From positions 1 through 64,000 of the forward strand of contig NZ_FNOE01000011.1 in NCBI RefSeq assembly GCF_900106555.1: a stretch of DNA of 64,000 nt, given 5' to 3'. Below the pieces are notes generated by a model. The model saw only the letters and a list, made by a program, of their open reading frames with translations, did not search any database and was not told where the DNA came from. The number at the start of each line of letters is the position of its first letter. Position 1 is the stretch's first letter. This DNA is from Nitrosomonas oligotropha (GTDB taxonomy: Bacteria > Pseudomonadota > Gammaproteobacteria > Burkholderiales > Nitrosomonadaceae). Shown one piece after another: positions 3,090 through 7,861 of the stretch. The position numbers and the translations under genes were made by a program.

Positions 3090-3317
3090 CGGAATCGTTT
3101 GAAAAATGCAGCGCAGAGATTAACACGACACCGCGCAAAACGAAATTCGGCTGCGTTGCGAAGCGCGGAAATACGCTCACAGTCTGCTGTAGTTGATTTT
3201 ACCCGGAATCGTTTGAAAAATGCAGCGCAGAGATTAACACGACACCGCGCAAAACGAAATTCGGCTGCGTTGCGAAGCGCGGAAATACGCTCACAGTCTG
3301 CTGTAGTTGATTTTACC
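3090..3317. repeat. Two exact tandem copies of a 114-bp unit
   Basis: Bases 3090-3203 and 3204-3317 are identical. The unit begins CGGAATCGTTTGAAAA and ends GTAGTTGATTTTACC. It contains a CCGCGC...GCGCGG inverted pair with an inner GCAA/TTGC pair, so each copy can fold. Because 114 is a multiple of three, an open frame runs through both copies, but no ribosome site or known protein supports coding. The absence of any mismatch means either a recent duplication or ongoing homogenisation. It fills most of the 350-bp gap between the phosphatase and subtilase genes. Confidence 0.95.
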
Positions 3318-3399: not shown

Positions 3400-4710
3400 T
3401 TAACTGCCCGTTTGCTGTTTTGGGGTTCTTGAGGTTTTTACGCTGATGGTACTGAACAGTTTGTTCTTATTGAATAACTGGTAGAAAGTGGGTTCGTTGG
3501 CTTTTTCCAGCAATCTGGAGATCTCTTGATGCGTCAGATTGCGGTTGATTTGCAGCAGCAGGGCGGTAAGGCCCGAAACGTGCGCTGTCGCGAGGGAGTT
3601 ACCGGACACAAAATCGTACGTTCCCTTGGGCAGCGTCGTCAGTATTTCTTGCCCTGGTGCGGAGATGGTGAGGGCATCACTATCATGGGACGATGGCGTG
3701 ATGGTGTTATGCGTGCTGCGAACTGCGATAACGCCCGGTTGCTGTGCTGGGAACCCGGACTTGCTATCGTTTCTATCTGCTTGCGAAGCGATGATGATCA
3801 TGCCTTTTTGCACGGCTTTCTCGATTAATCTGGCCAACAGCGGATCATGTGGTCCGGTTAAGCTGAGATTGAGCACATCGACTTTCATTTGTATGGCGGT
3901 ATTGAGCGCGAGCGCCAAGGTAAAGCTATTGCAAGCCGCCTCGAAACTACCGGTTTTTATTTCCCAGCAGGCTTTCAATCCGATCACGTGGCTATCCGGC
4001 GCGATACCGACGATGCCCTGTCCATTGTTCGGTTTGGCCGCAATGACACCCGCTATGGCGGTGCCATGCAGATCGTTGAGCGATTCCGGAGATTTCCGGG
4101 TGACAAAATCTTTAGTTTGCTGAATTTGGCCTTGCAAATCGGGATGCGTCGCGTCGATTCCGGTATCGATAATGGCGATGGTTATATTTTTGCCGGTTGC
4201 GTGATTGTGTATTTCGGCCAGATTCATCGACTGGATATTGAATTGTAGGCGGTAATAAGGATCGCTGTAACTATTCGCCATGACCTTAAAAGTGCTCATC
4301 GTTTGAACATTATCAACACGGTCATCTTCGCTTAAGGCCTTGATGATTGCGTCCACGGATTGGTCTTCGTCAATCAGATAGACGACACAATGCTCACCGA
4401 TTTCCCGGATTGGCCACTGCGACAGGATTGTCAGTTTGTAATCCGCTTCAATACTGGAGGCGACTCTTTTTCCCCAAGTTGAACTGCTGTATTCGCCTCG
4501 GCGGCGATAGGATTGGTTTGCTACGCCAACCGGGATGCGGTCGATGTGTTTGTCGGTGTAGGTGACTAAGATAATCCGGTCGGCTTGCGTGCTATCGAAA
4601 AGCTGAGGATCAACAAAAAATTCCTGTTCGGCACTGGCGGGTAAAACAACCAGCATCGCCATGAGTAACGAAAAGAAAAATGCATGGATGCGCACGCGCT
4701 TAGTTTGCAT
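3400..4710 (-). CDS. Secreted subtilase (S8) serine protease
   Basis: A 436-residue protease with an N-terminal signal peptide (hydrophobic 10-25, cleavage near ASA-EQ). A roughly 100-residue pro-region (46-145) follows, then a subtilisin catalytic domain. The triad is visible: Asp182 in IIDTGID, His215 in DLHGTAIAG, Ser372 in SGNSLATAHVSG; Asn281 in NLSLTGP fits the oxyanion hole. The pro-region ends in a strand-helix-strand pattern (VVYLID...IIKALSEDDRV) reminiscent of I9-type propeptides. The ATG overlaps the TAA of the anti-sigma gene by one base (TAATG), so it is translationally coupled to it and downstream of an ECF sigma factor. The substrate is unknown; see the findings for a proposed regulatory link. 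Confidence 0.88.
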   Translation of the reverse strand: MQTKRVRIHAFFFSLLMAMLVVLPASAEQEFFVDPQLFDSTQADRIILVTYTDKHIDRIPVGVANQSYRRRGEYSSSTWGKRVASSIEADYKLTILSQWPIREIGEHCVVYLIDEDQSVDAIIKALSEDDRVDNVQTMSTFKVMANSYSDPYYRLQFNIQSMNLAEIHNHATGKNITIAIIDTGIDATHPDLQGQIQQTKDFVTRKSPESLNDLHGTAIAGVIAAKPNNGQGIVGIAPDSHVIGLKACWEIKTGSFEAACNSFTLALALNTAIQMKVDVLNLSLTGPHDPLLARLIEKAVQKGMIIIASQADRNDSKSGFPAQQPGVIAVRSTHNTITPSSHDSDALTISAPGQEILTTLPKGTYDFVSGNSLATAHVSGLTALLLQINRNLTHQEISRLLEKANEPTFYQLFNKNKLFSTISVKTSRTPKQQTGS

Positions 4711-5423
4711 TAGCGTATATCCTGACCGGCTGGTTGCAATCCTTGAACCAGTTCGGCAAAAATGACCTGGGTATTGTTACGTAAATAGGCGATGGCATCG
4801 TCGACTTCTTGCGGGCGCGTGTGCCGGTTACCGATTTGAATTTCATAAATGCCATTTTCCGAAGGCCCTTGAACGATACGGCCCGAGACGCTGTGCAAGA
4901 TGGCTCCGATTTGTTTGGAATCCGGTTGATCTGCAAAGACGATGCGTACCCGATTGTGTGCCGGTGTATTTTCCGGTGCGGTGGCGAGTGTTCTGTATTC
5001 CGCTGTCACAGCAGTTTGCTCTGCCGGTAAATGCAACATGAACGGCATGGCCAGCAATAATAAACTCGCTGCCAAGGCGGTATGTTTTACAAAGCCGAGG
5101 GGCTGGCTGGAAGGAAATTTGGATGCTTCGCTGGGCTGGTTATGCTGAGTAAAAGGGCGGATGATAGATTGACGCTCAATGCGCTTTCTCAGTTGTGCGA
5201 AAGCAGCCTGCGAAACTTGCCGCAGAAGATCTGTTTGTTGCATTTCTTCAAATAGTTGCTGTTGCTGTTGCAGCTCAATTCTGCAGGCTATGCACGTCCT
5301 TACGTGATTTCTCACTCGATCTTTCTCAACAGCGTCCAAGGAGTGATTAACATACCAGGGGAGGAGATTCCATACTTTCTGGTGCTCGTTTTTACCCATG
5401 ACATTGATCATTGTAGAGGACAT
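4710..5423 (-). CDS. Membrane anti-sigma factor with propeptide-like outer domain
   Basis: A 237-residue single-pass protein. Residues 11-60 carry a zinc-binding anti-sigma motif with His40, Cys44 and Cys47 (H-x3-C-x2-C). A hydrophobic segment at about 114-132 would span the inner membrane. Residues 158-226 form a periplasmic domain of beta-alpha-beta character (VRIVFADQ, GRIVQGPSENGIYEIQIG, AIAYLRNNTQVIFAELV) that resembles subtilase propeptides. It starts three bases after the sigma-factor stop and its own stop overlaps the protease start. By family knowledge it should hold the ECF sigma factor at the membrane. What triggers release is not known. A run of glutamines (51-56) follows the zinc motif. 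Confidence 0.82.
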   Translation of the reverse strand: MSSTMINVMGKNEHQKVWNLLPWYVNHSLDAVEKDRVRNHVRTCIACRIELQQQQQLFEEMQQTDLLRQVSQAAFAQLRKRIERQSIIRPFTQHNQPSEASKFPSSQPLGFVKHTALAASLLLLAMPFMLHLPAEQTAVTAEYRTLATAPENTPAHNRVRIVFADQPDSKQIGAILHSVSGRIVQGPSENGIYEIQIGNRHTRPQEVDDAIAYLRNNTQVIFAELVQGLQPAGQDIR

Positions 5424-5426
5424 CGT

Positions 5427-6029
5427 TTAACTCCTGCCTTTAAGCTCTGGAAGTAATTTCGCTAAAATTTTTCGTGCATGAAACATTCTGGTTTTTACTG
5501 TATTCTCAGGGCATTGCATGATTTCTGCAATTTCATTGTAATGCAGCCCTTGATAATAGGTCATCTCTACCACAGCGCGCTGTTCCGGGGATAAATTATC
5601 AAAGCCTGCTTCCAGCCAGTTACTGATCTCCAGCTGCGAAACCCACTGCGCTGCGGGATTGGGAAAGTAATCCAGTTCATCGTTGAATTCAACGGACCGG
5701 TCTTCTCTGATCAAGCTTTGTTCGATACTTTTTAATGCTTTGAAATACGCAATGCCGAGAATCCAGGTGGACGGGCGGCATGTTTGATCGTAGGTCGATG
5801 CTTTTTCCCACACCACATACATCACGTCATTAATAATTTCTTCAATGTAATCATGCCGCCGGGTAATGTGGAAAATGAACTGGTACAAGCGGTCAAAATA
5901 ACGTTGATACAGCTGTTCAAAAGCTTTTCCATTACCGCCCGCAGTTTCGGCGATCAGATTCCGTTCCTTAACTTGCTGTTCGTTCGAGTTAAAAGATTTT
6001 CTTACTTTAGACTCGGGCAATTCACTCAT
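5427..6029 (-). CDS. ECF-type RNA polymerase sigma factor
   Basis: A 200-residue sigma-70 family protein with only regions 2 and 4, as in extracytoplasmic-function sigma factors. Region 2 lies around residues 35-80 (YQRYFDRLYQFIFHITRR, then INDVMYVVWEKA). Region 4 lies around 145-190 (LSPEQRAVVEMTYYQG, then HYNEIAEIMQCPENTVKTR), with its helix-turn-helix. It is the first gene of a tight three-gene operon with an anti-sigma factor and a subtilase. Such sigma factors usually autoregulate their operon; I could not identify the promoter by eye in the 100-bp upstream gap. Confidence 0.9.
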   Translation of the reverse strand: MSELPESKVRKSFNSNEQQVKERNLIAETAGGNGKAFEQLYQRYFDRLYQFIFHITRRHDYIEEIINDVMYVVWEKASTYDQTCRPSTWILGIAYFKALKSIEQSLIREDRSVEFNDELDYFPNPAAQWVSQLEISNWLEAGFDNLSPEQRAVVEMTYYQGLHYNEIAEIMQCPENTVKTRMFHARKILAKLLPELKGRS

Positions 6030-6128
6030 GGTGTTTCATAATCGCTATGACTACTGATTAAGTCTCGGTAAATTTGCCCTGTTTATTCCGTGTGGCGGCT
6101 TAAAAGTTCATTGCGGCAGAAATAAAAA

Positions 6129-6854
6129 TCAAAATCCGACGGTGATAGAGAATAAAACACGGTTATCAACCACATGCGGCCGGAATTGCCAGCCTGCAAT
6201 ATGTTCTTTTTCAGCGCCTAAATCCAATCCGGAATAGTAGCGGACATCGACACCGATATTCGGAGAAAAATGCCAAGTCACGCCGGAAGTCCAATACAGA
6301 TAATCATAGTGCAGCACTTTCTTCTGTTGGCTGTAGCCGAATGTGCCTGACATTTCGATGGAGCTGGTGATCGGGTAGCGTCCAGTAATTTCATAATTGA
6401 ATGACATATGGTTTTGCTGGTAGCCGTTCTCGGAGAAACTAAAGTTGGCTGATAGCAAATCGCGGAAATGTGTATGCAAGTAAAATTCATTGTAATCAAC
6501 ATTCTGACCGAAGATTTTGCCCGTGAAAATATAACGGGTCCACTCCGCATTAAAGCGCCAATCGTCCGATAGCTGATAGGCCCAACCGGCATAGGGTTTG
6601 AATTCAGCATCGGAACGCGCGGCGAATCCCTGATCGGCAAAATTGACCGTTGAAGCAAAAGTGCCGAGATAAAGCCCCGATTTAAACCCGTAGTCGATAT
6701 TGAGCTGCGCGGCGGGTTTTCCATCGCTTTTGGAGTAACCGCGCCAAATATAATCGGTAGTGCCGGTTACGCTGGCGCTTAGCTGAGCATAAGCGCTGAT
6801 CGGGTAACCCAGAATGAACAGCAATCCTAGCAGTCGATGGTTTTTTATTTTCAT
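6129..6854 (-). CDS. TorF-family putative outer-membrane porin
   Basis: A 241-residue protein with a signal peptide (hydrophobic 8-22, cleavage near AYA-QL). The mature part is rich in alternating aromatic/polar beta-strands and begins with LSASVTGTTDYIWRGYSKS, characteristic of the TorF/Gcw_chp family of predicted outer-membrane proteins. It ends in a terminal aromatic strand (RVLFSITVGF) expected for BAM-dependent insertion. It lies 100 bp downstream of the sigma-factor start, on the same strand but transcribed toward it, so it has its own upstream region rather than belonging to the sigma operon promoter. The transported substrate is unknown. Confidence 0.8.
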   Translation of the reverse strand: MKIKNHRLLGLLFILGYPISAYAQLSASVTGTTDYIWRGYSKSDGKPAAQLNIDYGFKSGLYLGTFASTVNFADQGFAARSDAEFKPYAGWAYQLSDDWRFNAEWTRYIFTGKIFGQNVDYNEFYLHTHFRDLLSANFSFSENGYQQNHMSFNYEITGRYPITSSIEMSGTFGYSQQKKVLHYDYLYWTSGVTWHFSPNIGVDVRYYSGLDLGAEKEHIAGWQFRPHVVDNRVLFSITVGF

Positions 6855-7552
6855 GGATTATGGACGCGAATGATTAAACCATCGATTGTTTTAAAGTGAT
6901 TCAGTGCCGGGTAACGAGAAAGGGAGTTTAGTGGATAAATTAAAATTCAAAATGGATTTCCAGTAGGAAATTTTAACATCATGGCGTAGTAATCTTTGCG
7001 ATCTATAAATTCATGCGCAGTTCAAGCAATTGATTGTTAATGAATTAATTGCATATTATTGTGTGTCTATAAGCACACTTAAACCCATGGAGCAAAAAAT
7101 CTTTATCAACGTTGAACCTTTTTCTGCTCTGCCGGAATAAACGCACAGAAGAAAAATTATTTTAAGTAGGTCACCTCGTTAGGAGATTTAAAGATTGAAA
7201 ATACTTTACGGAACACCGGCGCTTATAAGGTTTGATTTGATCACTGCATCAAATGCCTATGAGCAAGGAATGGGAGGTACAGGTTAACTTTTATGAAAAT
7301 ATCTGCTTTGTGAAGTGTGCGTTATTTCAATTGAGCTCGATTCTGCTCTCAGGTTATACAGTATAAAAAAATATTTTAAAAATTGACTCAGATAATTCCT
7401 ACAGTTTGCCGTTATATATAAAAAATTGAGACGTAAGATTCCTGTGTTTTTTTCAGAAGAATCCGTAATCCCAAAATATTAAGCTGGGATGAGTCAAATT
7501 TTTCAGCTATCAATGAATTAATTTATATTGGAAAAGTGGAAGGAGTACTGAC
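6855..7552. other. 698-bp AT-rich intergenic region
   Basis: Between the TorF-like gene and the small gene at 7553 no convincing gene is seen. One 35-codon frame (ATG near 7258) and one 17-codon frame (ATG near 7087) lack ribosome sites. An inverted pair TTTGAT-N6-ATCAAA occurs at 7236-7253. The region is AT-rich and separates divergent genes, so it probably holds promoters for both. Confidence 0.6.
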
Positions 7553-7861
7553 ATGTCATTAAAAAATTCAATTAAGGGGTTTAAAGCTTATTTAGGCGAT
7601 AAAGAATCGCTGCTGGATACGAACTACAGAAGAATTGCGGATATGATCGAATTGCATTGGGGATACAAAGAATTTTATCAGCTCATCCAGAAATTGCTGG
7701 TTGTTGAAAAAGACCAGAACAGACAAGGATTTCCATTGGAAGTGTTACAGGAAATCTATGCCTTGCAGGAGTTGCACCAAAAAGAATTTCCTGCGCTCAA
7801 GATTTTAATCGATGATGGTTCCGCTTCACGGGCCAGAAACAAGAGCTCGTTGCTGGTATAG
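7553..7861 (+). CDS. Uncharacterised 102-residue protein
   Basis: I do not recognise this protein. It has no signal peptide or membrane segment, is predicted largely helical, and is moderately charged (LLVVEKDQNRQG, YALQELHQKEF). A good ribosome site (AAGGAG, eight bases before the ATG) and an upstream AT-rich region support expression. It is monocistronic: the upstream neighbour is divergent and the downstream L,D-transpeptidase gene is convergent. A small cytoplasmic regulatory or structural protein would fit, but nothing visible identifies a function. Confidence 0.6.
   Translation: MSLKNSIKGFKAYLGDKESLLDTNYRRIADMIELHWGYKEFYQLIQKLLVVEKDQNRQGFPLEVLQEIYALQELHQKEFPALKILIDDGSASRARNKSSLLV

Follow-up and report, generated by a model that had tools for sequence, protein, structure and literature searches.

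A predicted propeptide-like outer domain in an anti-sigma factor encoded between an ECF sigma factor and an S8 protease in Nitrosomonas oligotropha

Results

Gene organization of the locus

In the present study, a three-gene set was analyzed in the first 64,000 nucleotides of contig NZ_FNOE01000011.1 of Nitrosomonas oligotropha (assembly GCF_900106555.1), and this whole stretch of DNA is referred to as the window. The set encodes an extracytoplasmic function (ECF) sigma factor, a transmembrane zinc-finger anti-sigma factor and a secreted S8 protease, and the outer domain of the anti-sigma factor was predicted to adopt the fold of a subtilase propeptide. The three genes lie on the minus strand in this order as one tightly coupled set, with a spacing of 3 bp between the sigma and anti-sigma genes and the sequence TAATG at the second junction, where one base is common to the anti-sigma stop codon and the protease start codon. 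The 3-bp spacing and the TAATG overlap stated in an original prediction, which was made from the sequence letters, were confirmed. The main features are as follows.

5427..6029, minus strand: ECF sigma factor, 200 amino acids (Pfam and NCBIfam)
4710..5423, minus strand: transmembrane zinc-finger anti-sigma factor, 237 amino acids (zf-HC2, zinc residues)
4746..4958, minus strand: propeptide-like outer (C-terminal) domain of the anti-sigma factor, about residues 156-226 (AlphaFold2, VIA-align 2, PF22148)
3400..4710, minus strand: secreted S8 (subtilase) protease, 436 amino acids (Peptidase_S8, E 3.4e-41)

The product of the sigma gene exceeded the cut-offs of Sigma70_r2 (30 bits) and r4_2 (54.3 bits) in Pfam, assigning it to the ECF sigma factors, and also that of TIGR02937 in NCBIfam. 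Three further parts of the anti-sigma factor were located.

5280..5378, minus strand: zf-HC2 zinc finger, residues 16-48 (Pfam, 23.3 bits against a cut-off of 22.2)
5022..5078, minus strand: membrane segment, residues 116-134 (hydropathy maximum 1.84 over 19 residues)
4983..4997, minus strand: juxtamembrane YRTLA motif, residues 143-147 (conservation in 22 sequences)

The zf-HC2 score barely exceeds its cut-off, and this protein is the sole zf-HC2 match in the genome at E <= 0.001. H40, C44 and C47 are unchanged across 22 anti-sigma sequences, so that the HxxxCxxC motif, which we take to be the mark of the ZAS anti-sigma family, is present, and the protein is putatively the factor that silences the adjacent sigma factor. 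In the YRTLA motif, T145 is invariant and Y143 and L146 are nearly so, and a similar stretch was noticed by eye in other anti-sigma families. The closest named relative found was Nitrosomonas oligotropha Nm45, whose anti-sigma factor is 87% identical.

In nine of 34 loci (L021, L022, L025, L026, L028, L029, L030, L031 and L039), the anti-sigma and protease genes share a reading frame and are separated by a single stop codon plus a few codons. A natural anti-sigma/protease fusion, considered for rows with an open frame of 674, was rejected, as a stop codon separates the two genes.

Fold of the outer domain

The AlphaFold2 model of the outer domain shows a beta-alpha-beta-beta-alpha-beta order, with strands at residues 158-163, 181-185, 192-197 and 220-225 and helices at 169-178 and 204-215, and the block values of the predicted local distance difference test are 83-90 over anti-sigma residues 161-220. 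All seven top structural matches of this model in VIA-align 2 were subtilase or PC1/3 propeptides, so that the predicted model has the subtilase propeptide fold. In addition, the subtilase prodomain profile PF22148 matched a relative of the anti-sigma factor, that of L039, above the cut-off (36.5 bits, E 6.3e-9). Among the whole proteins of six relatives, one passed (L039), two matched below the cut-off and three were without a match at E 0.1, and the window's own domain remained under the cut-off of 21 (13.5 bits for the whole protein, 15.7 for the domain alone). When the outer domain was compared with the pro-region of the adjacent protease, a profile of 79 sequences gave a probability of 38% and P 3.4e-4; this profile had been re-cut after the result from a mis-cut larger profile (P 0.013). 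The comparison of small-alignment profiles gave a match of only 17 columns (probability 2.7%, P 0.017), and no propeptide was among the matches when PDB sequences were searched with outer-domain profiles. A mixed alignment (A6) was discarded, since in diverged domains MAFFT had matched the second half to the pro-region of the protease.

The strand-helix-strand pattern that the original prediction had read by eye in residues 158-226 (VRIVFADQ and further segments) was upheld by the AlphaFold2 model. Its suggested propeptide likeness was supported by the fold check that it had asked for, in which the best structural matches were these propeptides, by PF22148 in relatives and by the profile match to the protease pro-region. 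A pro-region of similar shape had also been claimed for the protease, and in the model of L031 this region does fold as a propeptide-type domain. The outer domain may bind and inhibit a subtilase. Among the titles and openings of abstracts searched, no paper on such a domain in an anti-sigma factor was listed, although the 2021 reclassification of ECF sigma factors may contain a description.

Distribution of the gene set

Of 61 genomes, 20 encode the anti-sigma factor, counting that of the window, and an S8 gene adjoins it in 21/21 fetched loci, comprising the 20 places from this search and L041; in L022, the contig ends within the sigma gene. Searches with domain profiles gave matches in 27 of 399 genomes at the level of the order, in 24 of 369 at that of the class and in 25 of 299 at that of the phylum, these genome sets overlapping in part. 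The sigma/anti-sigma/S8 module is widespread in Pseudomonadota. From 81 fetched loci, 77 were evaluable: L114, which is not an anti-sigma factor, was dropped before counting, and L085, L107 and L111, cut by contig ends, were excluded. Four places from the phylum search (G945, G838, G934 and G889) and three short loci that have S8 (L043, L045 and L067) stand outside this count. An S8 gene is present in 66 of the 77 domain-bearing loci, mostly directly downstream, and upstream of the sigma gene in L119 and L120.

Two further comparisons addressed the link between domain and protease. First, 28 zf-HC2 loci were compared in 41 genomes of the order, and S8 was found within about 1.5 kb in 6/6 loci with the domain and 0/22 loci without it (exact probability 2.7e-6), suggesting an association beyond chance. 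The six domain-bearing loci, the window's included, come from five genomes, and three are Nitrosomonas; among the 22 others, contig ends truncate three, and 16 have a detected sigma gene. Second, distance matrices of 64 loci gave a partial correlation of 0.21 between domain and S8 beyond that with sigma, a value reached in 0 of 999 permutations, and the same partial correlation for the anti-sigma N-terminal part was 0.02. The domain tracks sigma closer than S8 (partial r 0.33 given S8), and the correlation of domain and S8, obtained from related sequences, may be taken as a weak sign.

The S8 protease

The protease is the only S8 match in the window's genome, and its parts are as follows.

4630..4710, minus strand: putative signal peptide, residues 1-27 (hydropathy maximum at residues 8-26; cleavage site by eye)
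4276..4581, minus strand: the protease's own propeptide-type pro-region, about residues 44-145
3496..4194, minus strand: S8 catalytic domain, residues 173-405, with D182, H215 and S372 kept (Pfam Peptidase_S8)
3775..3777, minus strand: Asp312, aligned to subtilisin Asn155 (HMMER alignment to subtilisins; residue table over loci)

The Asp-His-Ser triad of S8 peptidases is present (D182, H215, S372) and is retained in 35/35 rows of the window-type S8 clade. Asn155 of subtilisin is the residue of the oxyanion hole, and no Asn was found at this column in the window, 17 Nitrosomonas-type relatives, L037, L038 and L072, all of which have Asp (Asp312 in the window). Elsewhere in the window-type clade, P, E, A, R or a gap occupies the column. 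Asn is retained in the 31 rows of more distant S8 partners with data there. The change suggests that a slow or non-catalytic role of the protease is a real alternative in this clade. Three cysteines do not vary among 22 sequences: residue 108 lies in the pro-region, and residues 248 and 260 lie in the catalytic domain.

Promoter-like site and divergent open reading frame

Three features lie upstream of the operon.

6081..6110, minus strand: promoter-like site TGAACYNTT-N12-RNAATANAC upstream of the sigma gene (alignment of 17 upstream regions)
7113..7142, plus strand: divergent exact copy of this site (pattern scan)
7195..7287, plus strand: small open reading frame of 30 amino acids with a TTG start, partly hydrophobic and ending in GMGGTG (motif scan, codon variation)

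Among the 17 Nitrosomonas-type regions upstream of sigma, 14 carry the site exactly, with one mismatch in L029, three in L035 and more than two in L036. In the whole genome of the window, only the two sites listed above are exact. The 61 Nitrosomonas genomes hold 36 exact sites, as compared with 3 for a reversed-pattern control; by our own reading, 22 are upstream of this kind of sigma gene (two of them in loci that were not fetched) and 14 are elsewhere. The sites upstream of sigma are partly circular because the pattern was derived from them, and for the same reason the Fisher value of 4.9e-9 for the pattern is largely circular. When only sites away from sigma were counted in the 37 genomes common to the anti-sigma search and the site scan, they occurred in 8/16 genomes with the Nitrosomonas-type triad, 0/2 with a divergent triad and 0/19 without a triad (8/16 vs 0/19, Fisher 5.5e-4). 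The lone site of G006, with a flagellin-like gene at a distance of 1 kb, may be due to chance. The conserved site looks like an ECF promoter with autoregulation.

The small open reading frame is preceded by AGGAGAT and lies 3' of the second promoter-like site. A scan for segments ending in G.GGTG with at most 4 further residues, covering 82 sequences (844,471 bases, 50,611 reading segments), returned 12 segments. Eleven of them, in the window and in ten Nitrosomonas loci, are divergent to the operon, and one is in the unrelated L101; that of L031 has three residues beyond the motif. The second promoter-like site, with at most two mismatches, is present at 8/11 of the small-frame loci, and L025, L026 and L030 have none. 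In ten sequences, the five invariant codons vary at 5/5 third positions and at 0/10 first or second positions, as expected of coding sequence. Instead of the small frame, a 136- or 131-amino-acid protein (L024, L034) or a 615-amino-acid protein (L028) is encoded divergently, and L021 has shorter frames resembling the 136-/131-residue protein. In G006, this divergent position (L035:8221-10119) is taken by a DUF5666 protein in which GxGGTG forms seven repeats, and another DUF5666 protein with such repeats is encoded on a different contig of the window's genome, G000 (L193, contig C33). The repeats are in the N-terminal part of these large proteins, and the motif is the ending of the small peptide. 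No paper on the GxGGTG peptide was listed among the titles and openings of abstracts searched. It is conceivable, if doubtful, that sigma drives the anti-sigma factor, the subtilase and a secretable peptide of about 30 residues in a closed loop, in which the subtilase would be contested between the propeptide-like ectodomain and the peptide or the repeats, and the extracytoplasmic level of substrate or peptide would thereby be reported to the sigma factor.

Neighboring sequences

6129..6854, minus strand: TorF/gcw_chp putative porin (TIGR02001, above cut-off)

This putative porin gene is a neighbor of the operon at L040 and at 15 of the 17 Nitrosomonas-type loci, and is absent from L022 (contig cut), L036 and L037-L039. 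In L040, which represents another family of loci, the porin gene (7131-7835) is 3' of the protease gene. A 114-bp unit forms a perfect tandem repeat at positions 3090-3317 of the window, just 3' of the protease gene.

Discussion

The propeptide-like outer part of the anti-sigma factor and the adjoining S8 gene suggest that the protease probably acts on the anti-sigma factor. Herein, we propose, as a fairly probable explanation, an autoregulated circuit of an ECF sigma factor, a zinc-finger anti-sigma factor and a periplasmic protease, in which the propeptide-type ectodomain would serve as a docking and inhibitory handle for its cognate S8 enzyme. First, the protease would be synthesized as a zymogen and, after export, mature by losing its own pro-region. 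Second, the mature protease would dock on the ectodomain, and while the protease is occupied or limiting, the anti-sigma factor would stay intact. Third, when the level or activity of the protease rises, the ectodomain would be degraded or shed; subtilisins degrade their own propeptides. The site-2 protease of the cell would then cut the remaining stub and release the sigma factor, which would transcribe its own operon and the divergent product. A member of the M50 site-2 protease family is encoded in the window's genome (PF02163, E 9.4e-74). The contact between protease and ectodomain, the direction of control, the shedding and the function of the promoter are what we infer from the computed features.

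Several results weigh against this interpretation. First, unrelated folds of the ferredoxin-like kind followed close behind the propeptide matches of the outer domain, a small margin for a predicted model. Second, a single-chain model places the protease's own pro-region, and not the anti-sigma domain, in the propeptide site. Third, the usual oxyanion Asn is missing from the window protease and its clade. Fourth, a caspase-type gene replaces S8 in 5/77 loci (L074, L090, L112, L118 and L125), and 6/77 loci have neither gene (L075, L079, L094, L097, L102 and L105). Fifth, the domain is present without any S8 gene in G520, G741, G316 and G238, which are 99-100% complete; an S8 search of 14 genomes found none in these four and in G615 (86%), and all five have the domain. 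The conserved triad, for which the original prediction had proposed a search in other genomes, is supported by the S8 gene in 66/77 loci, and the counterexample that this prediction named, a domain-bearing anti-sigma factor with no nearby protease, occurs in the minority of 6/77, the remaining 71 carrying an S8 or a caspase-type gene. The caspase-type proteins of L074, L090, L112 and L118 exceed the PF00656 cut-off and start with signal-peptide-like stretches, as judged by eye; that of L125 was detected with a profile from the other four (E 3.5e-66), and the closer of the two domain genes of that locus is about 1.5 kb away from it. In L074, the caspase-type gene is on the opposite strand, upstream of sigma. 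In one family (L094, L097 and L102), sigma and the domain-bearing anti-sigma factor are near dapB-like and carAB-like genes (by eye), and two of its genomes are without S8.

The oxyanion change is also the basis of a reversed polarity, in which a weakly active or inactive protease would be a sensor or co-repressor that shields the ectodomain until a ligand or substrate removes it and another site-1 protease cuts. Consistent with such a role, the 35 window-type rows have D, P, E, A or R, or in one case a gap, in place of the Asn and keep D, H and S, and control through ectodomain release of the RsgI type has been described in a review (PMC10202637). However, the triad is intact in every window-type row, and the more distant S8 partners with data at this column keep the Asn; we regard this polarity as unlikely. 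The ectodomain might instead be a general sensing domain of the common ferredoxin-like fold, with S8 as a mere output of the operon that makes no contact with it. This explanation is difficult to reconcile with the profile match of the domain to the protease pro-region, the PF22148 match in L039 and the 6/6 versus 0/22 control, and a second protease type takes the place of S8 in 5/11 S8-less loci and 0/66 S8-bearing ones (profile search); we consider it unlikely as well. Subtilase propeptides act as folding helpers, and an ectodomain that only folds or tethers the exported protease in trans, without control of sigma, is most improbable, because the protease carries its own pro-region and the linkage to a zinc-finger anti-sigma factor would then be without evident use.

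The proposed circuit of docking and ectodomain loss resembles known systems in part. In the regulated proteolysis of RseA (Sigma-E/RseA/DegS/RseP; PMC8103513), a transmembrane anti-sigma factor holds an ECF sigma factor, and, as here, the cell has a serine protease in the periplasm as well as a protease of the site-2 type; unlike that system, the serine protease of the present locus is an operon-encoded S8 subtilase and the ectodomain is propeptide-like. The anti-sigma factor may be regulated by site-1 and site-2 cleavage. The domain shares the predicted beta-alpha-beta-beta-alpha-beta fold with subtilase propeptides and inhibitors (the PF22148 fervidolysin prodomain, subtilisin propeptides and POIA1), but it is borne in trans by the anti-sigma factor and not by the protease, and the window's copy is below the PF22148 cut-off. 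For RsgI of Bacillus subtilis sigma-I, ectodomain processing governs the access of the site-2 protease, similar to the control point proposed here, whereas no subtilase partner or propeptide-type domain is named in the consulted part of that account (PMC10202637). ECF54 sigma factors (PMC8999054) have subtilase, carboxypeptidase and CHAT neighbors without an anti-sigma factor; the subtilase and caspase-like neighbors are shared with the loci studied here, which differ in having a membrane anti-sigma factor. When a study on the coevolution of class I anti-sigma factors (PMC7406223) was searched for the terms subtilisin, subtilase and propeptide, none of them was found in its text, and a propeptide-type anti-sigma ectodomain is not described in the consulted parts of these four papers (PMC8103513, PMC8999054, PMC10202637 and PMC7406223).

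If the proposed circuit is true, these loci would represent a class of envelope switches that use the pairing of propeptide and subtilase, known from enzyme maturation, as a signaling contact, and many anti-sigma ectodomains of Pseudomonadota that have no assigned role would gain a function. Moreover, because the caspase-type genes occur only where S8 is missing, they suggest a wider theme, in which anti-sigma ectodomains might be matched to an exported protease.
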